A DNA stretch of 36,719 nt from Myxococcaceae bacterium (GTDB taxonomy: Bacteria > Myxococcota > Myxococcia > Myxococcales > Myxococcaceae). This document shows, piece after piece, positions 9,722 to 31,154 of this stretch. The notes beneath the pieces were generated by a model, which made no database searches, had not been told where the DNA came from, and saw nothing but the letters and a program-made list of their open reading frames with translations. Every line of letters begins with the position of its first letter. The first letter of the stretch is position 1. The DNA lies in contig JADGRA010000057.1 of assembly GCA_017881265.1 (NCBI GenBank), positions 1 through 36,719 on the forward strand. Reading direction: 5' to 3'. The position numbers were made by a program, and so were the translations under genes.

Positions 9722-9794
9722 GGGAGCGTAGCTCAATTGGCAGAGCAATGGACTCTTAATCCATAGGTTGTGGGTTCGATTCCCTCCGCTCTCA
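9722..9794 (+). tRNA. tRNA-Lys (anticodon CTT)
   Basis: A complete 73-base cloverleaf can be folded by eye. It has acceptor GGGAGCG/CGCTCTC (one G-U pair), D-stem GCTC/GAGC, and anticodon stem ATGGA/TCCAT with loop CTCTTAA giving anticodon CTT. The T-stem is GTGGG/CCCTC around TTCGATT. There is one U-U mismatch in the T-stem at positions 50-64. The 3' CCA is not encoded. Confidence 0.96.
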
Positions 9795-10014
9795 TTCACC
9801 GGCGGCATGGCTCTCTCACAGCGGGACGGGGGGCGTGCCGCCGGTTTGCGCTTCCCAGGCCCGGCCCGACACGCTTCCACCGGCGCGCAGCGAGGGGCGG
9901 CGAAGCCGTGACGCGGCGCGGCAGTGACGGGGCCGCAACAAATGCGCCGCGGGGCCGTGGCGCCCCGCTTCACTCGGTTTCTGTGAGGGCAGCATTGCCC
10001 GGGCGTTGCGGGGC

Positions 10015-10049
10015 GTTACCGATGGTAACGCGCTGTTACCGGTCGCCAC
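10015..10049 (+). promoter_or_regulatory. Upstream activator site: GTTACC dyad plus second half-site
   Basis: The exact dyad GTTACCGATGGTAAC (10015-10029) is followed five bases later by GTTACCGGTCGCCAC (10035-10049), whose left half is intact. The spacing of 20 bases puts the sites on the same face of the helix. The dyad recurs as GTTACC-N3-GGTAAC at 26783-26797 and in an imperfect form at 25163-25177, each about 74 bases upstream of a sigma-54 promoter. It is probably the binding site of an NtrC-type activator; the CbrB-like regulator at 26835-28184 is the best candidate. Confidence 0.75.
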
Positions 10050-10102: not shown

Positions 10103-10118
10103 TGGAACGCACCTTGCG
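10103..10118 (+). promoter_or_regulatory. Sigma-54 (-24/-12) promoter of the porin gene
   Basis: TGGAACGCACCTTGCG carries the invariant GG (10104-10105) and GC (10116-10117) separated by exactly 10 bases, close to the consensus TGGCACG-N4-TTGC. Transcription should begin near 10129. The upstream dyad at 10015 lies 73 bases away, a normal range for an enhancer-bound activator. Confidence 0.82.
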
Positions 10119-10205: not shown

Positions 10206-11579
10206 ATGAAGCTGAAATCAGGGGTGCCGTTTCTGGCGGTGCTGTTCGTGGTGCTGCTGGCCACGCCGGCCCGCGCTGCGAAAATCACCATCGGGGACTC
10301 TGGCGGTTTCGTTGACGTCGGGGCGATTGTCCAGACTTGGGTTCGTGTGAATGAGAGAGGCTCGGCAGACCACTCGGGTCCGTCGTACGACATCTTCTTC
10401 CGGCGCATGCGGTTCTACGTGAACGGCGAAATCAACAGTCACATCGGCATCATCGCCAACACGGACGTGAGCTACACGCAGGCTGGCGCGGCTGCTTCGG
10501 ACGTCATCACCAACCCGGTCACGCAGCAAAACTCAGTCCGGTTCGCGTCCCCGACCATCGTAATCAACGAAGCGCTGGGTTATTGGGCCCCCTGCAGCGA
10601 GTTCATCTTCATGGCTGGCCTCCAGCTCATCCCATGGGTCCACGAATCCTTCACAGACATTACGAAGTTCTCCGCCCTGGACGAGCAGACGGACGCCACG
10701 GAGCGCGGGCGGCCAGGAGGCTTCTTTGGCCGTGACCGAGACATGGGTCTCGCCGTTCGCGGAGACCTCGCTTTCATCAACTACCGCATCGGCGTGTTCA
10801 ACGGCGTGCAGACCATCGCTGGCAAGTCGACGGTGACGGCGACCGGCCTCGTCACCGGCCCCACCAACGTGGCGGTCAACTACCCCGCCTACACCGGCGT
10901 CAACCCGGGTGACTCCCCAAGCTTCGACGGCGCCATCCGCATCAACATTGTGGGGAGGGAGCCGGGCTACGCGTACACGGGCATCGCCTACGACGGGAAG
11001 TCGTACTTCAGTATCGGCGGCGGCGTGAACTTCCAGCCGAGGGCGATTGCCGCCACGGCGCGTGGGCTCTCGACTGCCACCTACACTGGCTACTTCGCCG
11101 ACTTGCACCTGGACCTGGCGTTCGGAGACAACGAGCTCGTGCTCGAAGCCGGCTGGATCCGCACTGTCTACTCTGGCAACGGCGCCCCCATCCCCTCGAA
11201 CAGCGCCGCCGGACTGGCCCTCGTCAACAACGCCGGCAACGCGTACTACGGCAGCCTGGGAGTCCGCTTCGCCTGGTTCTACCCCTACTTCGCGATGGAG
11301 TATTACAAGTCCAACCTCCCCGACGCCCTGGTCCAGTCCACGTACCAGGCCTTCGGAAACGGCTGGCTTCCCGCGGCAGGTCGCGTCGGCACCCTGGCCA
11401 CGTACCACGGCGGATTGAAGTTCTTCATCTCCGCGCCGCCCGGGAACCAGTTCATGATCAACCTGGACATGGCCTTCCAGGGCAAGACGAACGCTGGCCA
11501 GGTCACAGTGGCCGGTGGCGCCGAGCCCATCAACGGGAACCAGTGGTCGGGCACCGTCGAGTTCCAGTGGAAGATTTAG
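10206..11579 (+). CDS. Outer-membrane porin (beta-barrel, OprO/P-like)
   Basis: This protein has 457 residues with a Sec signal peptide (MKLKSGVPFLAVLFVVLLAT, cleavage after ARA at about residue 24). The mature part is a chain of amphipathic beta-strands with an early pattern (DIFFRRMRFYVNGEINSHIG) like that of phosphate-selective or general porins of the OprO/P type. It ends in a strand (VEFQWKI). It should form a channel for small solutes in the outer membrane. GAGGGG stands nine bases before the ATG at 10206, deciding the start over an in-frame site 33 bases upstream. It is transcribed alone: its own sigma-54 promoter lies upstream and a terminator downstream. Sharing regulatory sites with the MHS transporter and the synthetase-like gene suggests that it admits the same nutrient; specificity cannot be read from sequence. 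Confidence 0.85.
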   Translation: MKLKSGVPFLAVLFVVLLATPARAAKITIGDSGGFVDVGAIVQTWVRVNERGSADHSGPSYDIFFRRMRFYVNGEINSHIGIIANTDVSYTQAGAAASDVITNPVTQQNSVRFASPTIVINEALGYWAPCSEFIFMAGLQLIPWVHESFTDITKFSALDEQTDATERGRPGGFFGRDRDMGLAVRGDLAFINYRIGVFNGVQTIAGKSTVTATGLVTGPTNVAVNYPAYTGVNPGDSPSFDGAIRINIVGREPGYAYTGIAYDGKSYFSIGGGVNFQPRAIAATARGLSTATYTGYFADLHLDLAFGDNELVLEAGWIRTVYSGNGAPIPSNSAAGLALVNNAGNAYYGSLGVRFAWFYPYFAMEYYKSNLPDALVQSTYQAFGNGWLPAAGRVGTLATYHGGLKFFISAPPGNQFMINLDMAFQGKTNAGQVTVAGGAEPINGNQWSGTVEFQWKI

Positions 11580-11722: not shown

Positions 11723-13114
11723 TCAGTCGTCGCCAGTGGTCGGGTCCTGGTCGCCGAGAAGCTTTGCCAGCGTCTTTCGGTCGACCCCGAGTGCATCCGC
11801 GGTCGCCAGTCGCCGCCCGCCTTGCTGGTGCAGGGCCCAAAGGGCGTAGTGGCGCTGCAGCTGCCGCAGCGGCAGGACCGGCGGCCTAAACTCGGCGTGG
11901 CCCTCCCCGCTTTCGTCCGGCAGTTCAAGGTGCAATTCCTCGGGCTGGACTTCCCGACCGCGGCCCAGGAGGACCGCGCGTTCCACCACGTTCTCGAGCT
12001 CACGCACGTTGCCTGGCCAGGGGTGTCGCGCCAGCCTCGCGTGGGCGGCCAGGGAGAAAGCCTCGACCGGTGAGCGCGGATGGCGTGATTTGGCGACCTG
12101 GAGGAAGTGCTCCACCAGCACCGGGAGGTCCTCGAGCCGGTTCCTCAGCGCCGGCAGCTCGAGGCGGACGACGTCGAGCCGGAAGAGCAGGTCCTCCCGG
12201 AAGCTACGCCGGGCGACCAGCTCTCGAAGGTTTCGGTTGCTGGCGGCGACGATGCGCACGTCGACCGCCCGCGGCTTGTTGGCCCCGACGGCCCGCACCT
12301 CCCCGCTTTCCAGGACGTTGAGGAGCTTGGCTTGCAACGCAATGTCCATCTCGCCAATCTCGTCGAGGAACAGGGTGCCCCCTTGCGCCTCCTCAAAGAG
12401 TCCGGTGCGGGGGGCCACCGCGCCGGTGAAGGCGCCCTTCACGTGGCCGAACAGTTCCGACTCGAGAAGGTTTTCGGGGAGTGCGGCACAGTTGACGGTC
12501 ACGAACGGACCCTCCGAGCGCCGCCCGAGCGCATGCAGCGCTCGAGCCACCAGGCCCTTCCCCGTGCCCGTTTCTCCCGACAAGAGAACCGGTACGTCGG
12601 CGTCGGCCACTCGCTCGATGAGGTCGAACAGGGTCCGCATCGAGGTGCTGGTGCCGACGAGGTTGGCCAGGCCAAAGCGCTCCCGCAGTGCGCGGCGCAG
12701 CACGAAAGCCTCGTTCCGCAGGCGGGCCTCGTCCAGGGCCTTGTGCAGAAAGAGTCCCAGCTCGTCCACGGTGAAGGGCTTGGTGAGGTAGTGGTAGGCC
12801 CCCTGGCGAATGGACTCAATCGCCGAGGCGACCGCGCTGAAGGCCGTGGTGACGATGACGGGCCGCATCGGGTCCAGACGGCGGGACAGCGCCAGCAGCT
12901 CCATCCCGTCCAGCCCGGGCATCCGCAGGTCGGTCACCAGGGCGTCGAAATCCTCGTGTTCCAGGCGCCGGGCCGCCGCCGTGCTCGACTCCTCGGGAAC
13001 CGCCCGGTAACCACGCCCCTCGAGGCCATCGGCCAGCGTCTCGGCGAGCGCGAGGTCATCGTCGACCACCAGCACCCGAGTCGCGACTTCGGTTTCTCTA
13101 GTCGGCAACGTCAC
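11723..13114 (-). CDS. Sigma-54-dependent response regulator (NtrC family)
   Basis: This activator has 463 residues. The receiver domain spans about 12-130 with phosphoacceptor D62 (VTDLRMPGLDG) and the Lys of TKPF. The AAA+ domain, about 150-385, has Walker A GETGTGKG, the sigma-54 contact loop GAFTGA (GHVKGAFTGAVAP), Walker B FLDEIGEMD and HPWPGNVRELENVVERAV. A Fis-like helix-turn-helix lies at the C-terminus (RRLATADALGVDRKTLAKLL). The start is a GTG at 13114 with AAGGAG four to five bases before it; this overlaps the end of the kinase gene by 17 bases, so the pair is co-translated. It should activate sigma-54 promoters when phosphorylated by the adjacent kinase. A likely target is the divergent efflux operon at 14735; this is inferred from position and from a candidate promoter and dyad there. 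Confidence 0.95.
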   Translation of the reverse strand: MTLPTRETEVATRVLVVDDDLALAETLADGLEGRGYRAVPEESSTAAARRLEHEDFDALVTDLRMPGLDGMELLALSRRLDPMRPVIVTTAFSAVASAIESIRQGAYHYLTKPFTVDELGLFLHKALDEARLRNEAFVLRRALRERFGLANLVGTSTSMRTLFDLIERVADADVPVLLSGETGTGKGLVARALHALGRRSEGPFVTVNCAALPENLLESELFGHVKGAFTGAVAPRTGLFEEAQGGTLFLDEIGEMDIALQAKLLNVLESGEVRAVGANKPRAVDVRIVAASNRNLRELVARRSFREDLLFRLDVVRLELPALRNRLEDLPVLVEHFLQVAKSRHPRSPVEAFSLAAHARLARHPWPGNVRELENVVERAVLLGRGREVQPEELHLELPDESGEGHAEFRPPVLPLRQLQRHYALWALHQQGGRRLATADALGVDRKTLAKLLGDQDPTTGDD

Positions 13115-14471
13115 GGCGCTCCTTCGTCACGGCGGCAATCTCGACCCGGACGCGCGTCCCGGCCCCCCCCGGCCCCGCCCCGGTGCGCGGCTCGAAGGCC
13201 AGGCTCCCGTGGTGGTGCTTCACAATCTCGCTGGCGATGCTGAGCCCCAAGCCCGTCCCCTGGCCGGGCGCCTTGGTGGTGAAGAGGGGTTCGAGGCAGC
13301 GTTCGGCCGCTTCGGCGGAAATGCCCGTCCCGTTGTCATCCACCAGAAAGGCGACACGGTTGCCCCGGTGCTCGACTTGCAGCGTCACGCTGCCACCAGG
13401 GGGGCAGGCGTCACACGCGTTGAGCAGAAGGTTCACCAGCACCTGCTCAAAGAGGGCCGGGTCACAGGCCACCAGCGGTAAGTCCGGCTCCAGTCGGTGG
13501 ACGAGGGCGACGTTCGCCTGGGCAAAGCGGTGCTCGACGAGTTCCAGCGCCGAGCGCGCCAGGGCGGCCGGCTCGACGTGAATCAGCGCGGGGGTGCCTC
13601 CGCGTGCCAGGGTGAGGAAGGCACGGATGATGCGGGAGATGCGGCCCGCCTGCTCGAGGATGGAGGAGGCTGCGCGATGGGACCGCGAGTGCGGCTCCAT
13701 GCGGGCCAGCAGTTGCTCCGCGCGGCCGACGATGATGCCGAGCGGCGTGGACACCTCGTGCGCCACGCCCGCTGCCAGCGTCCCCAGCGTGGCCAGCTTG
13801 TCGGCCTCCACCAGGCGCCGGTCTCGGGCCTGCACCGCCTCCCGCACCGCCAGCACCTGCTGCAGCTCGAGCTCCCGGCGCTGCTTGCGCAGCGCGAGCC
13901 CGCCGAAGATGCCCACCAGCGCCGAGGCCAGGGCGGTGCCCAGCACCAGTCGCCACAGGGCGCGGGATTCACGGTCCCGCACCCGCTCGGCGGTGGCCAG
14001 CACGGCGATGGACCAGAGGCGTTGCCGCCCATCCGCGCGTTGTGCCAGTCCAGCCAGGGCCATCCGGCGCGGGAGCCCCACGGCCGCCGCCTCATCCCGG
14101 GAGAGGCGCACCCAGGGCCGCCCCGCGTCGAATGCGGTCTGGATGGCCGGCGCGGAGACGGCTTCCCCGCCGGCGCCGAGGAGCAGGGGTTGACCGGGCG
14201 CTCGCACCAGGACGCGCACTGCGCCCGGTTGCTGGGCGGAGCCGCCGATGGCGGCGAGCGCCTCGAGGAGGCACGGACTGCCGGGCTGGGCGCACTCCGG
14301 CGTCCGGACACGGTCGAGCAGGGCAATGGCAGCGCTCCGGGCCACCGCCGTCTGCTCGGCGGCGAAGTCGTCCAGGGCCGCGCGTGCCTCACGCCGTTCG
14401 TCCCACAGGGCAACGGCCAGCACGGCGGCCAGCGCGAGCACCATCCCCACCATCAGCTGGATGCGCTTCAT
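13098..14471 (-). CDS. Membrane sensor histidine kinase, partner of the NtrC-type regulator
   Basis: This protein of 457 residues has TM1 at about 5-23, a periplasmic sensor part at about 24-172 with two cysteines (C60, C67), and TM2 at about 174-194. A short coiled linker follows. HisKA carries H238 (LAAGVAHEVSTPLG), and the HATPase domain has NLLLNACDACPPGG, DDNGTGI and FTTKAPGQGTGLGLSIASEI. The start MKRIQLMVGMVL at 14471 is preferred because it directly precedes TM1; longer in-frame starts add an Arg/Ala-rich stretch without a ribosome site. Its 3' end overlaps the regulator gene by 17 bases. The stimulus is unknown but periplasmic by topology, which fits control of the divergent efflux genes. 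Confidence 0.92.
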   Translation of the reverse strand: MKRIQLMVGMVLALAAVLAVALWDERREARAALDDFAAEQTAVARSAAIALLDRVRTPECAQPGSPCLLEALAAIGGSAQQPGAVRVLVRAPGQPLLLGAGGEAVSAPAIQTAFDAGRPWVRLSRDEAAAVGLPRRMALAGLAQRADGRQRLWSIAVLATAERVRDRESRALWRLVLGTALASALVGIFGGLALRKQRRELELQQVLAVREAVQARDRRLVEADKLATLGTLAAGVAHEVSTPLGIIVGRAEQLLARMEPHSRSHRAASSILEQAGRISRIIRAFLTLARGGTPALIHVEPAALARSALELVEHRFAQANVALVHRLEPDLPLVACDPALFEQVLVNLLLNACDACPPGGSVTLQVEHRGNRVAFLVDDNGTGISAEAAERCLEPLFTTKAPGQGTGLGLSIASEIVKHHHGSLAFEPRTGAGPGGAGTRVRVEIAAVTKERRDVAD

Positions 14472-14613
14472 GGCGGGGACGTTGCCAGCGAGGAGCGGCG
14501 GCAGGGTCGACGCTCGCCGGGCGGCAGGGGCCAGAAGGACAGCCAGCATTCGGACGGAGGACTGAGCAAGGCAGGTGCCATGGCGCGTCGGAGCCACACG
14601 CGCGTCGAATCAA

Positions 14614-23426: not shown

Positions 23427-25034
23427 TTAGACCGTCGAGATTTTGTGGTCCTTCGTCTCGCGGATGAAGAGCGAGCCGATGACGAATGTCATCGCCGCGA
23501 CGATGATGGGGTACCAGAGGCCGTAGTAGATGTCGCCGGTGGCGGCCACCAGCGCCGTCGCCGTTAGGGGGAGCATGCCGCCGAACCAGCCGTTGCCGAT
23601 GTGGTAGGGCAACGACATGGACGTGTAGCGAATGCGGGTCGGGAACAGCTCGACCAAGAACGCCGCAATCGGCCCGTAGACCATGGTCACGTAGATGACC
23701 AGGATGAACAGCAGCAGTAGAAGCATCCCGAAGTTGACGTCCGAGGCCTTCGCCGACGTCGGGTACTGCATCCCGGCCAGGACGGTCTTCAGCTTCGCCT
23801 CATCCACGCCGACAATTTCCTGCTCGTTGATGCGCACCACCGGCTGGGCCCCGGGGGCGCCCTCAACCTTCGAGTAGGTGAGACTGCGGCTCGAGAGCTG
23901 ACTCTGCACCTTGTCACACGGGCTGTAGACGGTGGTGGGTAGAGGGAAGAGGTGAATATGGCAGTCGCTCGCGGTGAGCGTGATTTTGGTGCGCGAGTTG
24001 AAGTCCTCCAGCGCCGGATTGGCGTAGTGGGTGAGCGCCTTGAAGATGGGCTGGTAGGTGAAGACTGCCAGGAGGCAGCCGAGCATCATGATCCACTTGC
24101 GGCCAATCTTGTCCGACAGCCAGCCGAAGACGAGGAAGAAGGGCGTGGCGAGGATGAGCGAGAGGGCGATGAGGATATAGACGGTGGTCCAGTCGACCTT
24201 CAGCGTCGTCCCGAGGAAGAAGAGCGCGTAGAACTGCCCCGTGTACCAGACGACACCCTGCCCCGCGGTCGCCCCGAAAAGCGCGAGGATGACGATTTTC
24301 AGGTTGCCCCAGCGCGCGAAGCTCTCCGTGAGAGGGGCCTTGGAACCCTTGCCCTCGGCCTTCATCCGCAGAAACACCGGCGACTCCTGCAGCCGCAGCC
24401 GGATGTAGACGGAGATGATGAGCAGGATGATGGAGCAGAGGAACGGGATGCGCCAACCGATGGCCTTGAAACTGTCGGGGCCAAGCCCGTTGCGGCACAG
24501 GTAGACCACCATCAGGGCGAGGAGGAGACCCAACGTGGCGGTGGTCTGGATGAAACTGGTGTTGTAGCCGCGCTTGGAGTCCGGCGAGTGCTCGGCAACG
24601 TAGGTGGCCGCCCCGCCGTACTCCCCGCCGAGGGCCAGGCCTTGCGCAAGTCGCAGGATGAGCAGCAGCAGCGGCGCCAACATGCCGACCTGGGCATACG
24701 TCGGCAAAAGACCGACCAACGCCGTGGAGAGGCCCATGACAATGATGGTGACGAGGAAGGTGTACTTGCGGCCAATGAGGTCGCCCACCCGTCCGAAGAC
24801 CAGCGCGCCGAAGGGCCGCACCAGGAAGCCTGCGGCGTAGTTTACGAATGCACCCAGCAACGCCGCCTGCTGGTTCCCAGGCGGGAAAAACACACCGGCG
24901 AAGAAGGGCGCCAGGATGGCGTAAATGTAGAAGTCGTACCATTCGAAGACGGTGCCCAGAGACGACGCGAAGATGACGCGTCGTTCTTCTGGAACCTCAA
25001 GCGGGGCGGCGATGGCACTTGCGGGTGTGGCCAC
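23427..25034 (-). CDS. MHS-family (MFS) metabolite:proton symporter
   Basis: This inner-membrane transporter has 535 residues with twelve predicted helices. MHS signatures are TVFEWYDFYIYAILAPFF, RPFGALVFGRVGDLIGRKYT and LRLAQGLALGGEYGGAATYV. Relatives carry carboxylates, betaines or proline with protons. An insertion of about 100 residues (FKALTHYANPALEDFNSRTK to about AKASDVNFG) between late helices holds two cysteines and is predicted periplasmic. The start GTG at 25034 is chosen because GGAGG lies seven bases before it and because the sigma-54 promoter predicts transcription from about 25062; an in-frame GTG at 25067 would lie upstream of that. It is regulated like the porin and the synthetase-like gene. 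Confidence 0.9.
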   Translation of the reverse strand: MATPASAIAAPLEVPEERRVIFASSLGTVFEWYDFYIYAILAPFFAGVFFPPGNQQAALLGAFVNYAAGFLVRPFGALVFGRVGDLIGRKYTFLVTIIVMGLSTALVGLLPTYAQVGMLAPLLLLILRLAQGLALGGEYGGAATYVAEHSPDSKRGYNTSFIQTTATLGLLLALMVVYLCRNGLGPDSFKAIGWRIPFLCSIILLIISVYIRLRLQESPVFLRMKAEGKGSKAPLTESFARWGNLKIVILALFGATAGQGVVWYTGQFYALFFLGTTLKVDWTTVYILIALSLILATPFFLVFGWLSDKIGRKWIMMLGCLLAVFTYQPIFKALTHYANPALEDFNSRTKITLTASDCHIHLFPLPTTVYSPCDKVQSQLSSRSLTYSKVEGAPGAQPVVRINEQEIVGVDEAKLKTVLAGMQYPTSAKASDVNFGMLLLLLFILVIYVTMVYGPIAAFLVELFPTRIRYTSMSLPYHIGNGWFGGMLPLTATALVAATGDIYYGLWYPIIVAAMTFVIGSLFIRETKDHKISTV

Positions 25035-25072
25035 AGTGGAACCTCCGGGTGGGGAAGCGACCTTCACCAGTG

Positions 25073-25088
25073 GGCAACTCCCACGCCA
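25073..25088 (-). promoter_or_regulatory. Sigma-54 promoter of the MHS transporter gene
   Basis: Minus-strand TGGCGTGGGAGTTGCC has GG and GC with 10 bases between. It is nearly identical to the promoter of the synthetase-like gene (TGGCGTGGGCTTTGCG). Predicted start of transcription is near 25062, 28 bases before the chosen start codon. Confidence 0.82.
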
Positions 25089-25149: not shown

Positions 25150-25177
25150 GGTAACACCGCCTGCTACCAAACGTAAC
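25150..25177 (-). promoter_or_regulatory. Upstream activator site of the MHS transporter gene
   Basis: Read on the minus strand, the imperfect dyad GTTACGTTTGGTAGC (25177-25163) is followed by an intact half-site GTTACC (25155-25150). The first copy lies 74 bases from the sigma-54 promoter, the same as in the synthetase-like gene. It is the weakest of the three sites, and the positional match is what supports it. Confidence 0.6.
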
Positions 25178-25212: not shown

Positions 25213-26676
25213 TCAGGCGTGTCCCAGCGGCCCGGAGAGGGGCTCCGCCGACGTGAGGCCCACCAGCGCCGCCTCGTGCTCCCGGCCAGTCCAGGCGAGG
25301 CCTCCGTCGGGAAGCACCTGACAGCGTTCCAGCGTCCGGTACAGGCCCGGGAAGCGGTGCAGGCGCTGGTCGACGAAGCGCGCGTGGTCGGACTCCAGCG
25401 TGCGGGGCTGCGCGGGCCAGGAGGCGCGGGTACACAACTCGCCTTCCGCCCCCCGGGGCACTGGCATTCCGCGTGTGTCCAGCACCACGGGGTCCACGCC
25501 GAAGAGGGGCGTCGCGCCGACGCCCGGCCAGTGCGCCAGCAGCAGCCCCGCCCCCTCGCTGCTCCACACCGCGTGCAAGTCGGCGCTGCCACCCCAGGCC
25601 GCATCCAGCAGCACCGTCGTCCGGGGCAACCGGGCGGCGGGGGCCCCGGCCAGGTCCGCCGCGCTTGCCAGCACGTGCGTGACGCCGAGGGCGTCCAGCT
25701 GCTTCAGGGCATCGCCCCGCTCGTCCAGCACCAGCGTCGCCCCCAGCGCCAGGGCGCCGAACAGCACGTCGCTGCGGGGGCCTCCGACGTCGGAAGGGCA
25801 CAGCACGCGGTCGCCCGGGCGCACGCCGAGGGCCTCGCGCTGCACGAGGAGGGCCTGGAGGAGGAAGCCGGCCGCGCCATGCAACACCGGGCGCGCGCCG
25901 TCCTCGCCTGCGGCCGCCACCAGCAAAAGCCCATCCTCTCCCTGCACCAGCGCGGGCGCACACGTCGGCCGGGCCAGCGCCAGCGCTCGCTCCAAGTCGT
26001 GGTCGCGGGCATAGGCCAGGGGCACCCGGGCGCCCGTCCGCCGCTGCACCAGGACGGCCTCCACGCGGCCCAGGCCGTTGAGGGCCTCATCGGCGCGTTC
26101 CCACAGGGCCAGGCGCTCGCCCTGCACGTGCGCCTCATTGGCCGTCACCAGAAGCCGCGCCCGGGCCACGCGCAGCGCCCGGCGCAGCCACGGGGGGTCT
26201 GCCTGCACCGGCACGCACAGGTGCACTGCCCCCACACGCGCGCACGCCAGCAGCGCGACCACCAGCGGTGCGCCCACCGGCAGGTACACCGCCACGCGGT
26301 CCGCCGGCCGCACCCCTTCGCGCAGAAGGACGTTGGCCATGCGACACATCTGCTGGCGCAGCGCCCGGTAGGTGAGTGTCTCGACGTCCCCCTCCGGGCG
26401 AAGCCACACCAGCGCCGGCCGCTCCGGCGTCGCTGCCGCATGGCGGTCCACGCAGCTCAGCGTGACGTTCAGCAGGCCATCGCCAAACCAGCTGACGTCC
26501 CCTTCGGAGAGGTCTCCCTCGAAGGAGCGCTCGGGCGAGCGCACCCAGGAGAGTGCCGCCGCCTCCCGGTGCCAGAACTGCTCAGGCTGGGCGAGGCTCT
26601 CGGCGTGCAGTCGCTGACACTGGGCCAGTCGGGCTGCGGGCGAAAGGCGTGGGGCGGCGGCGGTCGAGCGGCTCAC
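25213..26676 (-). CDS. Acetyl-CoA-synthetase-like protein, truncated and probably non-catalytic
   Basis: This protein has 487 residues from GTG 26676, versus about 650 for acetyl-CoA synthetase. It retains the ACS N-terminal cap (QRLHAESLAQPEQFW, DGLLNVTLSCVDRHAAATPE) and fold markers (VYLPVGAPLVVALLACARVG; FGALALGATLVLDE; HARFVDQRLHRFPGLY). The catalytic motifs are replaced. The P-loop TSGSTGKPKG corresponds to AAAGEDGARP (about 254-263). The DTWWQTETG region corresponds to WSSEGAG. The Asp of YFTGD is Glu450 in YRTLE. The protein ends just after the hinge, so the C-terminal domain with the catalytic lysine is absent. The frame is intact and the gene has its own sigma-54 promoter, which argues for a retained non-enzymatic role rather than decay. 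The start is uncertain: a GTG at 26709 overlaps the promoter. Confidence 0.82.
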   Translation of the reverse strand: MSRSTAAAPRLSPAARLAQCQRLHAESLAQPEQFWHREAAALSWVRSPERSFEGDLSEGDVSWFGDGLLNVTLSCVDRHAAATPERPALVWLRPEGDVETLTYRALRQQMCRMANVLLREGVRPADRVAVYLPVGAPLVVALLACARVGAVHLCVPVQADPPWLRRALRVARARLLVTANEAHVQGERLALWERADEALNGLGRVEAVLVQRRTGARVPLAYARDHDLERALALARPTCAPALVQGEDGLLLVAAAGEDGARPVLHGAAGFLLQALLVQREALGVRPGDRVLCPSDVGGPRSDVLFGALALGATLVLDERGDALKQLDALGVTHVLASAADLAGAPAARLPRTTVLLDAAWGGSADLHAVWSSEGAGLLLAHWPGVGATPLFGVDPVVLDTRGMPVPRGAEGELCTRASWPAQPRTLESDHARFVDQRLHRFPGLYRTLERCQVLPDGGLAWTGREHEAALVGLTSAEPLSGPLGHA

Positions 26677-26692: not shown

Positions 26693-26708
26693 CGCAAAGC
26701 CCACGCCA
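26693..26708 (-). promoter_or_regulatory. Sigma-54 promoter of the synthetase-like gene
   Basis: Minus-strand TGGCGTGGGCTTTGCG has GG-N10-GC and matches the consensus well. Predicted start of transcription is near 26682, six bases before GTG 26676, which implies a very short leader. Confidence 0.8.
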
Positions 26709-26768: not shown

Positions 26769-26797
26769 GTTCCGGAACAGCCGTTACCGAAGGTAAC
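26769..26797 (-). promoter_or_regulatory. Upstream activator site of the synthetase-like gene
   Basis: The exact dyad GTTACCTTCGGTAAC on the minus strand (26797-26783) is followed four bases later by the perfect palindrome GTTCCGGAAC (26778-26769). The dyad stands 74 bases from the sigma-54 promoter. It lies just after the end of the CbrB-like regulator gene. Confidence 0.75.
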
Positions 26798-26834: not shown

Positions 26835-28184
<1,350 letters not shown>

Positions 28185-28193
28185 GTGCGTCAC

Positions 28194-31154
28194 CTACTTC
28201 GCTGGGGCCTGAAGCTGGGCGGCCCCGCCGGCCAATCGCTCCGGTTCTCCTCTCGACGGCAACTCCACCACCACCGTCGTTCCTTTCCCAGGGGAACTCT
28301 CCACTTCCAACGTCCCAAGATGCTCCCGGACAATGCTTTGCGCGAGGGGGAGTCCAAGTCCCGTACCCTGTCCAGGTGGCTTTGTCGTGAAAAAAGGTTC
28401 GAACATGCGTTCGCGCACTGCGTCGTCGATGCCAGTGCCGCGGTCCGTCACGCGCAGACGCACCACATCGCCCAGCGCCTCGCCCTCCACCACCACGTCG
28501 CCCCCGGCGGGACTTGCGTCACAGGCGTTGGAGATGAGGTTGACGAAGACCTGCAGCAGCCGCTGACGGTCCCCGTCGAGCAACAGGCCTGAAGCAACGC
28601 GGTTGTGGCACACCACCCGCTTGGCCTGCCGGGACAGCTGCACCAGCGTGATGGCCTCCCCGAAGGCCTCGCGCGCTTCGAAGCGTTCAAAGCGCGGCAC
28701 CGCGTGGATGGTTCCGGCGTGGCTGAAGCCAAGCAGCACCCGGACGATGGTGTCGATGCGCTGGGTTTCGCGAAGGATGAGGGCGAGGCGGTCGCGCTGC
28801 TCTCCGGAGGACTCCTTCTGTAAGTTCTGGGCGAGGCAGGCGATGCCGGTGAGGGGGTTTCCAATCTCATGGGCCACCCCGGCCGCTAGTCGCCCCACCG
28901 AGGCAAGCCGGTCCTGGTGGGCCACCTGCGCGGCAAGGGCCTTGCGCTCGGTGAGGTCCTCCACCAGCAGCACGGGCCCGCGCAGGTCCGCTGGCGCGCT
29001 GGAGGCCGGTTCCTGACTTTTCCCGAGGGACAGCACCCGCTCCCGCCCGTTGAAGGTGAGGCACACCTCGGCGTGGGGGGACTCCTGCTGCAGGAAGTTA
29101 CGGAGGGTGAGGGCGAGCGGTCCCTCCAGCTGGTCCAGGCGGGCGCCCACCGCGTCGGAGGCGTGCACGCCGGAGAGTGTCTCGAGCGCCCGGTTCCAGA
29201 TGACGACGTCGCGGTCCGGTCCCAGCGCACACACGCCTAAGGGCAAGTCCTCCAGCACCCGCCGCAGGTACCGGCGGAAGGCCTCCAGCTCGGCCGGCGC
29301 CCCGTGCAGCTGCGCCCGGCTCATCCGCAGCTGCTCCTCCAGGGAACGCAGCCGCTCGGACAGGGCCGGCTGGCGCCGCGGGTCCACCCGGATGCCCCGG
29401 TCCACCAGCCACCGCGCCCGCAAGGGGCCCACCAGGCCCGACAGGTTGCGCTGCAGCCGTTCCCGCAGCTTCTGCAGCTGGGCCGGCCGTCTCTCATCCA
29501 CCAGCATGTTGAGGTCGGCCAGGGCGAGGTCGACCTCGGTGGTGGCCGCGTCCAGCCCCAACAGTGGAGCCAGCTTGGCCTGGAAGTCCCGCGGGCTGCC
29601 CGCCTCCACCACCATCGGCTCTACCAGCCGGGGGGCCCGCGTGCAGAGTCCCGCTGCCTCCTCCTCGCGCGGGCTTTGCTGGGTCAGCAGGGAGACGCCC
29701 CCAAACAACAGGACGTTGAGGCCGAGGGACCAGAAGGTGGCGATGCTCCAGGGTTCTGTGCCAGGCACGATGCCGAAAAAGTGCGCCAGGTCGAAGCCGG
29801 CGGGCAACAGGTGGGCGCGGGCCAAGAGCGGCAGAAACAAGGTGGCCGCCCACACGGCAATGCCGGCCGACAGCCCGCTGAGGAAGCCCAGGCGCGTGGC
29901 GCCCCGCCAGAAGAGGACGGCCAGCAGGCCGGGCAGCACCTGGACGACGGCGACGAAGGAGATGAGGCCCAGCTCCACCAGCCCGGCCCGGACGTCGAGC
30001 AGCCGGGAGAAGCCGTAGCCGAAGAAGATGATGACGACGATGAGGACGCGCCGCGCCCACAGAAGGCCGCGGTAGAGGTCGCCCGCGCCGGCCAGGTTTC
30101 GCCTGGGCAGAAAGAGGTGATTGAGACACATGGCCGCCAGGGCCAGCGTGTCCACAATCACCATGGCGCTGGCGGCGGAGACGGCCCCCACGAAGGCCAG
30201 CGCGCTGACGCCCGTGCCGTGGGCCAGGCCGAGGACGTAGTTGTCGGGATGGACGCCCGGCAGGGCCACCTGGCCCGCCCACAACAGTGGCAGCACGGCC
30301 AGGTTGAGCAGCAGCAGGAAGGCGGGGAAGGCCCAGGCCGCGACGCCGAGGGCCCGGCTGCCCAGCGCCTCGGTGAAGGCCATGTGGAACTGCCGGGGCA
30401 GCAGAAAGCCGGCGGCGAAGGACAGGAGCAAGAGCGTGGCCCAGGGCCCCTCGCGCACCGGGCGGTAGACTTCCTCGAGGGCCTCCGGGTGCGCGGCAAG
30501 CCAGCGGCCGAGTCCACCCGCGCCCCCAAACACGTGGGTGACGGCCACCGCCGCGACGGCCAGCAGTGCGCCCAGTTTCACCACTGACTCGAAGGCGATG
30601 GCCAGCCCGAGGCCGGCGTGCCGTTCCCGGGGGGTGACATGCCGGGCGCCAAACAGAAGGGCGAAGAGCGCCACCAGCGCGCAGAAGACAAGGCCCACCA
30701 TGGACGCCGGCGGGGCGTGTCCGAGCAGACGCACGCCTTGGGTAACGGCGCGAATCTGCAGCGCCAGGTACGGCACGTTGCCCGCCAGCATGAAGAGCGT
30801 CACCAGCACGCCCGCGCCGTGGCTCTGAAAGCGGAAGGCGAAGAGGTCCGCCAAAGACGTCAGCTGGTGCTCGCGCGTCAGGCGCAGCACCGGCTGCCAC
30901 ACCACCGGGACAAGGAGGCACGACAGCGTCACCCCCACGTAGATGGCGAGGAAGTTGAAGCCTTGGGCCCGCGCGTAGCCCACGCTGCCGGAGTAACTCC
31001 AGGAGGTGGCGTACACCCCCAGCGACAGCGCGTAGGTGAGGGGGTGACGCACCAGCCCCGCCGGGACCCACCGTCGCTCGGCGGCATACGCCACCAGAAA
31101 CAGCAGCAGCAGGTAGCCAACGGCGACGGCAAAAAGCTGTCCGAGCTGGAGCAC
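28194..31154 (-). CDS. CbrA-like sensor kinase: sodium/solute symporter domain fused to PAS-HisKA-HATPase
   Basis: This protein has 986 residues. The first 500 or so form an SLC5/SSF-type membrane domain with about twelve to thirteen helices (TYALSLGVYATSWSYSGSVG, FLAIYVGVTLSCLLVPVVW, VGAVSAASAMVIVDTLALAA). A cytoplasmic linker, a PAS domain (about 624-740, DRDVVIWNRALETLSG), HisKA with H762 (AAGVAHEIGNPLTG) and HATPase (NLISNACDASPAGG, DRGTGI, FFTTKPPGQGTGLGLPLAQS) follow. CbrA of Pseudomonas has this same layout and links histidine or carbon supply to gene control. The start is a GTG at 31154, 16 bases after the small membrane protein gene. Its stop is followed closely by the regulator start, so all three are likely one operon. 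Ligand unknown; the regulated transporter suggests a carboxylate. Confidence 0.94.
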   Translation of the reverse strand: MLQLGQLFAVAVGYLLLLFLVAYAAERRWVPAGLVRHPLTYALSLGVYATSWSYSGSVGYARAQGFNFLAIYVGVTLSCLLVPVVWQPVLRLTREHQLTSLADLFAFRFQSHGAGVLVTLFMLAGNVPYLALQIRAVTQGVRLLGHAPPASMVGLVFCALVALFALLFGARHVTPRERHAGLGLAIAFESVVKLGALLAVAAVAVTHVFGGAGGLGRWLAAHPEALEEVYRPVREGPWATLLLLSFAAGFLLPRQFHMAFTEALGSRALGVAAWAFPAFLLLLNLAVLPLLWAGQVALPGVHPDNYVLGLAHGTGVSALAFVGAVSAASAMVIVDTLALAAMCLNHLFLPRRNLAGAGDLYRGLLWARRVLIVVIIFFGYGFSRLLDVRAGLVELGLISFVAVVQVLPGLLAVLFWRGATRLGFLSGLSAGIAVWAATLFLPLLARAHLLPAGFDLAHFFGIVPGTEPWSIATFWSLGLNVLLFGGVSLLTQQSPREEEAAGLCTRAPRLVEPMVVEAGSPRDFQAKLAPLLGLDAATTEVDLALADLNMLVDERRPAQLQKLRERLQRNLSGLVGPLRARWLVDRGIRVDPRRQPALSERLRSLEEQLRMSRAQLHGAPAELEAFRRYLRRVLEDLPLGVCALGPDRDVVIWNRALETLSGVHASDAVGARLDQLEGPLALTLRNFLQQESPHAEVCLTFNGRERVLSLGKSQEPASSAPADLRGPVLLVEDLTERKALAAQVAHQDRLASVGRLAAGVAHEIGNPLTGIACLAQNLQKESSGEQRDRLALILRETQRIDTIVRVLLGFSHAGTIHAVPRFERFEAREAFGEAITLVQLSRQAKRVVCHNRVASGLLLDGDRQRLLQVFVNLISNACDASPAGGDVVVEGEALGDVVRLRVTDRGTGIDDAVRERMFEPFFTTKPPGQGTGLGLPLAQSIVREHLGTLEVESSPGKGTTVVVELPSRGEPERLAGGAAQLQAPAK

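Follow-up and report, generated by a model that had tools for sequence, protein, structure and literature searches.

The window, that is, the whole stretch of 36,719 nucleotides analysed here (contig JADGRA010000057.1 of the Myxococcaceae assembly GCA_017881265.1, positions 1 to 36,719), contained a gene for a truncated acetyl-CoA synthetase (ACS) homologue, referred to below as the pseudo-ACS, together with a sensor kinase, a response regulator, a symporter and a porin-like gene. The features are listed below; G006 and G102 are two genomes of one sister genus that carry orthologues.

25213 to 26676, minus strand: pseudo-ACS, a truncated ACS homologue of 487 aa without an active site (open reading frame, Pfam, orthologues in G006 and G102)
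26694 to 26708, minus strand: predicted -24/-12 sigma-54 promoter TGGCGTGGGCTTTGC of the pseudo-ACS (consensus matching)
26783 to 26797, no strand: enhancer palindrome GTTACCTTCGGTAAC upstream of the pseudo-ACS (exact, conserved in G006 and G102)
26835 to 28193, minus strand: NtrC/AtoC-type response regulator with receiver and AAA+ sigma-54 activator (domain searches; 80-81% identity in G006 and G102)
28194 to 31154, minus strand: sensor histidine kinase with a membrane domain of about 500 residues, PAS, HisKA and HATPase, CbrA/CrbS-like in architecture (69-70% identity in G006 and G102)
23427 to 25067, minus strand: MFS metabolite:H+ symporter, MHS-like (domain searches; orthologues at 72%)
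25074 to 25088, minus strand: predicted -24/-12 sigma-54 promoter TGGCGTGGGAGTTGC of the MFS gene (consensus matching)
25163 to 25177, no strand: enhancer-like palindrome GTTACGTTTGGTAGC upstream of the MFS gene, with one mismatch (the MFS orthologues of G102, at C106:2160, and G006, at C50:24194, have it without a mismatch)
10015 to 10029, no strand: enhancer palindrome GTTACCGATGGTAAC upstream of the porin-like gene (exact)
10206 to 11579, plus strand: porin-like protein of 457 aa, predicted to lie in the outer membrane (matches the ExtI porin weakly; its G006 and G102 orthologues follow the same palindrome)

The true start of the MFS symporter is likely the GTG at about 25034, which stands behind GGAGG. 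About 100 residues of this protein (about 345-455) lay outside the match to the MHS family model and were conserved in the G006 orthologue.

Domains and lost motifs of the pseudo-ACS

The pseudo-ACS reading frame, on the minus strand, started with GTG at 26676 and ended with its stop codon at 25213, which confirmed the clean frame of 487 codons described in the initial annotation, where no strand had been named. Pfam showed ACAS_N (PF16177) at residues 21-75 (1.6e-11) and AMP-binding (PF00501) at residues 77-335 (2.3e-30), both over the gathering score, and the latter match covered model positions 2-260 of 384, i.e. only the first two thirds of the domain model. On both homologies the protein is an ACS homologue by descent, and the N-terminal cap noticed earlier was borne out. 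Like AMP-forming acetyl-CoA synthetase (AcsA, TIGR02188; S. enterica Acs, 1PG4), it has the ACAS_N cap and N-domain homology over residues 21-470, with about 28% identity in the structural alignment. Unlike AcsA, it has no P-loop, GEP, WWQTET, Asp500, C-terminal domain or Lys609, and it scored 249.8 bits against a family cut-off of 724.95, which was not reached.

Alignment with full-length ACS of the family showed that all the motif losses named in the initial annotation (P-loop, WQTETG, catalytic Asp and the C-terminal domain with the catalytic lysine) were real. The catalytic roles given to these positions are those known for S. enterica Acs. The P-loop TSGSTGKPKG was kept in none of the three known copies, its position being occupied by AAGEDGA-RP in the window copy and by GGSDEGPP and PGLEDGPP in the other two. 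The window protein carried HAVWSSEG in place of DTWWQTET, with one W and the final E surviving, and Glu450 at the position of the catalytic Asp500; VTG, GEP and the CoA-phosphate arginine motif were also missing, and all three copies stopped before the C-terminal domain with the catalytic Lys609. Of the residues invariant in ACS, catalytic ones were kept in 3 of 24 cases and the remainder in 61 of 158 (p = 0.012). The P-loop and GEP regions were shortened and unlike one another among the three copies, while the best-preserved stretches were the first 150 or so residues and residues 400-446. At 26 positions the trio agreed on a residue other than the one constant in ACS, and many of these positions fall in the region of the former active site (residues 250-375). 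Having lost every catalytic element, the protein is, as read from its sequence, a pseudoenzyme and should be incapable of ACS chemistry.

The structure modelling suggested in the initial annotation gave a confident ACS fold when full-length ACS rows were included in the alignment (AlphaFold, pLDDT 84; best matches ACS, Z about 47), and no usable model from the three copies alone (pLDDT 34). The predicted fold thus rests on homology.

Orthologues, selection and origin

The homologue search covered a family sample of 96 Myxococcaceae genomes, a phylum sample of 195 genomes and a wide scan of 84,980 species. Among the 96 Myxococcaceae genomes, two orthologues with the same truncation were found, those of G006 and G102 (482-484 aa; 54 and 52% identity). 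Both had lost the same motifs, and the C-terminal end GPxGxA-stop was common to all three copies. The pseudo-ACS was present in 3 of the 195 phylum genomes, and the scan of 84,980 species returned the same two MAGs (RPRB01000112.1 and JADGQZ010000318.1, unrelated assemblies), the remaining matches being more distant relatives of 27-33% identity, which were not each checked and are taken to be ordinary ACS. All three carriers are MAGs or draft assemblies of uncultured myxobacteria; an assembly artefact was ruled out, the gene being carried by three independent assemblies. The order kinase, regulator, pseudo-ACS and MFS gene was complete in G102, and G006 agreed with it up to its contig end.

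Between the G006 and G102 copies, dN was 0.115 and dS 0.735, giving a dN/dS of 0.157 (kinase 0.163, regulator 0.105), with low values in all four quarters of the gene (0.12-0.21). Identity at codon positions 1, 2 and 3 was 0.89, 0.92 and 0.58, respectively. Amino acid identity was 81.5%, against about 60% (maximum 63.8%) in 1000 random placements of the same substitutions. No stop or frameshift was found in any of the three copies; random placement left zero stops in 73 of 1000 runs from G006 to G102 and in 6 of 1000 from the window to G006, and the window frame was open where random change of equal amount gave about 4.6 stops. The sister-genus copies are under purifying selection, as measured on the G006/G102 pair. 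Recent decay was ruled out by the codon-position bias and dN/dS, and the earlier statement that the gene is not simply decaying was upheld. With its catalytic residues lost and its sister-genus pair under purifying selection, the protein is, on sequence comparison, a conserved pseudoenzyme. Its rate of change was higher than that of its neighbours (50% vs 70-80% identity).

In other Myxococcaceae genera (G003, G073, G099 and G053), the orthologous kinase/regulator pair adjoined an intact ACS, and the two of these genes that were looked at had comparable but imperfect palindromes and -24/-12 sites in front. The initial annotation had held that intact homologues in close relatives, combined with relaxed selection on the truncated copy, would speak against a maintained pseudoenzyme; other genera do carry intact homologues at the matching position, but selection on the truncated copies was constraining and not relaxed. 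In the phylogenetic tree, the three pseudo-ACS copies formed one clade (support 100), which with their common end indicates that the truncated form arose once, before the split of the two carrier genera. The trio was placed towards the kinase-linked ACS group (support 94), though without strong support, and its grouping with canonical ACS was marginally rejected (p-AU 0.044). The stem branch was very long, at about 4 changes per column, so the place of the trio among ACS is uncertain; the length is read here as a single episode of rapid change, after which new constraint set in. From the position of the kinase/regulator pair by an intact ACS elsewhere and the tree placement, the pseudo-ACS most likely arose by alteration of the ACS gene that the regulator itself targeted, its probable ancestor being the intact ACS that adjoins the same pair in other genera. 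Elsewhere, the window's own genome contained two intact ACS genes (C31 and C10), each scoring above the family cut-off.

Predicted sigma-54 regulon

The sigma-54 control of its own that the initial annotation had assigned to the pseudo-ACS was recovered as the -24/-12 site and the exact palindrome ahead of the gene. The description of both as nearly perfect held for the enhancer and was generous for the promoter, in which GG-N10-GC was intact and the long consensus was matched at 9 of 12 positions. Only two TGGCRYRN4TTGC sites were present in the window (0.25 expected), one before the pseudo-ACS and one before the MFS gene. The predicted leader ahead of the GTG at 26676 was about 6 nt, without a Shine-Dalgarno sequence; translation of the pseudo-ACS may therefore be weak, and may be leaderless. 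In G102 and G006 the upstream ATG of the gene fell inside the sigma-54 promoter, so the true start there is probably also a GTG.

Exact GTTACN5GTAAC palindromes occurred twice in the window's genome (4.4 Mb assembly), before the pseudo-ACS and the porin-like gene, and three times each in G006 and G102, before the porin, pseudo-ACS and MFS orthologues, so that all eight perfect palindromes of the three genomes precede one of these genes. The counts in the window's genome were not above those of the reversed control (2 vs 1 exact; 17 vs 40 with one mismatch), and the case for a regulon therefore rests on position and conservation. The palindrome of the porin-like gene was followed by a sigma-54-like site, TGGAACG-N4-TTGC, near 10103. 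Exact palindromes were also found in G003 and G040, before an ACS paralogue and before the gene of a secreted, perhaps porin-like, protein; the secreted protein of G003 had no detectable homology to the porin-like protein of the window. No palindrome within one mismatch was found near the canonical ACS of the window's own genome.

Features of an NtrC-type sigma-54 regulon were present at the sequence level: the AAA+ sigma-54 activator, the enhancer palindrome and the -24/-12 promoter. We infer that the NtrC-type regulator would bind the GTTACN5GTAAC palindrome. Because the sites are shared by the sensor-adjacent genes and the porin-like gene, the sensor pair, outer-membrane entry, inner-membrane symport and the pseudo-ACS look like one unit, with the porin-like gene as putative third member of the regulon beside the pseudo-ACS and the MFS symporter.

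The second exact palindrome and the porin-like gene behind it lie 15 kb away, beside a tRNA-like sequence at 9733-9795 (recognised by reading only), and in G006 and G102 the porin orthologue and its palindrome likewise had a tRNA-like sequence close by. A second two-component pair with an NtrC-type regulator (11723-14597) adjoins the porin-like gene, whose promoter it could control as well.

The membrane domain of the kinase matched the solved histidine kinase chain 10ed_A (PDB) over its whole length of about 500 residues (5e-160) and the monocarboxylate permease MctP weakly (0.0043). CrbS/R controls acs in Vibrio and Pseudomonas (PMC5436829), and CrbS/CrbR (MxtR/ErdR) is a system in which an ACS gene is controlled by a sensor kinase with a membrane transporter-like domain (PMC5436829, PMC5715377). 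The locus resembles this acetate regulon in having a kinase of apparently similar architecture and an ACS-type target, and differs from it in that the myxobacterial regulator is NtrC-type, with sigma-54 promoters, and the ACS target in the pseudo-ACS lineage is a pseudoenzyme. CbrB is also NtrC-type. The CbrA kinase carries an SLC5-like domain (PMC7096432). The window kinase is CbrA/CrbS-like by architecture, with no Pfam match for an SSF/SLC5-like domain, and the window regulon, in contrast with that of CbrA/CbrB, comprises few genes (porin, pseudo-ACS, MFS), located for the most part next to those of the regulatory pair.

Proposed role and alternative explanations

The explanation regarded as rather probable is that of a conserved, non-catalytic ACS pseudoenzyme that is co-induced with short-chain carboxylate uptake and acts by protein binding; the gene product is probably a former enzyme that now serves as a regulator or scaffold. 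The kinase would sense a short-chain carboxylate, acetate or a relative, the acetate-type signal being suggested by analogy, and the NtrC-type regulator would switch on the porin, pseudo-ACS and symporter genes together. With no ACS chemistry expected and the ligand contacts gone, protein binding is the most likely mode of action, presumably via the kept parts (the N-terminal cap and first 150 or so residues, 200-240 and 400-446). The most likely candidates for the partner are the cell's own intact ACS, the symporter and the kinase, and the pseudo-ACS would tune carboxylate activation or uptake instead of making acetyl-CoA. Partnership with the transporter and regulation of a true ACS, both suggested in the initial annotation, are thus kept as candidate roles. 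A more specific version, put forward tentatively, is that an acetate-type two-component regulon swapped its enzyme target for a dedicated pseudo-ACS. In response to carboxylate, this protein would bind to the housekeeping ACS, to the symporter or to the kinase and so set the rate of activation or uptake.

Four other explanations were weighed against protein binding. A repurposed enzyme or ligand-binding protein, whose rebuilt pocket binds or converts another small molecule, would fit the 26 trio-constant substitutions; it is considered rather unlikely, since the nucleotide, acyl and CoA contacts are gone, the shortened and differing P-loop and GEP regions show no common new motif in their place, and the C-terminal domain, which closes the pocket, is absent. 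The loss of the same contacts weighs on a sensor of acyl-adenylate, AMP or CoA that informs the kinase or transporter. Such binding had been proposed in the initial annotation, and it agrees with the ACS homology and with the shared control of the gene and a transporter next to a sensor kinase, but no copy retains the residues with which ACS binds these ligands, so sensing by the old pocket appears very unlikely.

A dispensable ACS in the course of being lost, with its regulatory sites left over, would account for the very long stem branch, the faster change than in the neighbours and the missing Shine-Dalgarno sequence, and selection on the window's own branch is not separately measurable. 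Set against this are the comparison of G006 with G102, in which dN/dS was low and codon-position bias strong in every quarter of the gene, the frames free of frameshifts and of stops, where random placement seldom left no stop, and the C-terminal end shared by all three copies; this explanation is given slightly less credence still. An N-terminal subunit of a split ACS, with the C-terminal domain supplied by another protein, is scarcely credible: the pseudo-ACS does end near the domain boundary, but its N-terminal domain has lost its own P-loop, GEP, WQTET and Asp500, which a C-terminal domain acting in trans could not make good.

Control of acetate activation by ACS is tight in all forms of life and works chiefly through transcription and through acetylation of the catalytic lysine. 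An ACS devoid of catalytic residues but kept by selection within an acetate-type regulon would add a further layer to this control; in the more specific version above, it would be a bacterial ACS pseudoenzyme with a regulatory role. A literature search for ACS pseudoenzymes in bacteria found nothing relevant. The gene also offers a clear natural case in which an enzyme has, judged by sequence, become a non-enzyme at a known locus, and with the intact ancestral state still found in related genera, the change can be studied side by side. Profile matches (7aih, 6hiv) also pointed to the kinetoplastid mitoribosomal protein mL69, a non-enzyme partly similar to the ACS N-domain. A shared origin of the loss of catalysis is not suggested; the match covers only about 70-95 residues, and mL69 sits in the ribosome of a eukaryotic organelle.
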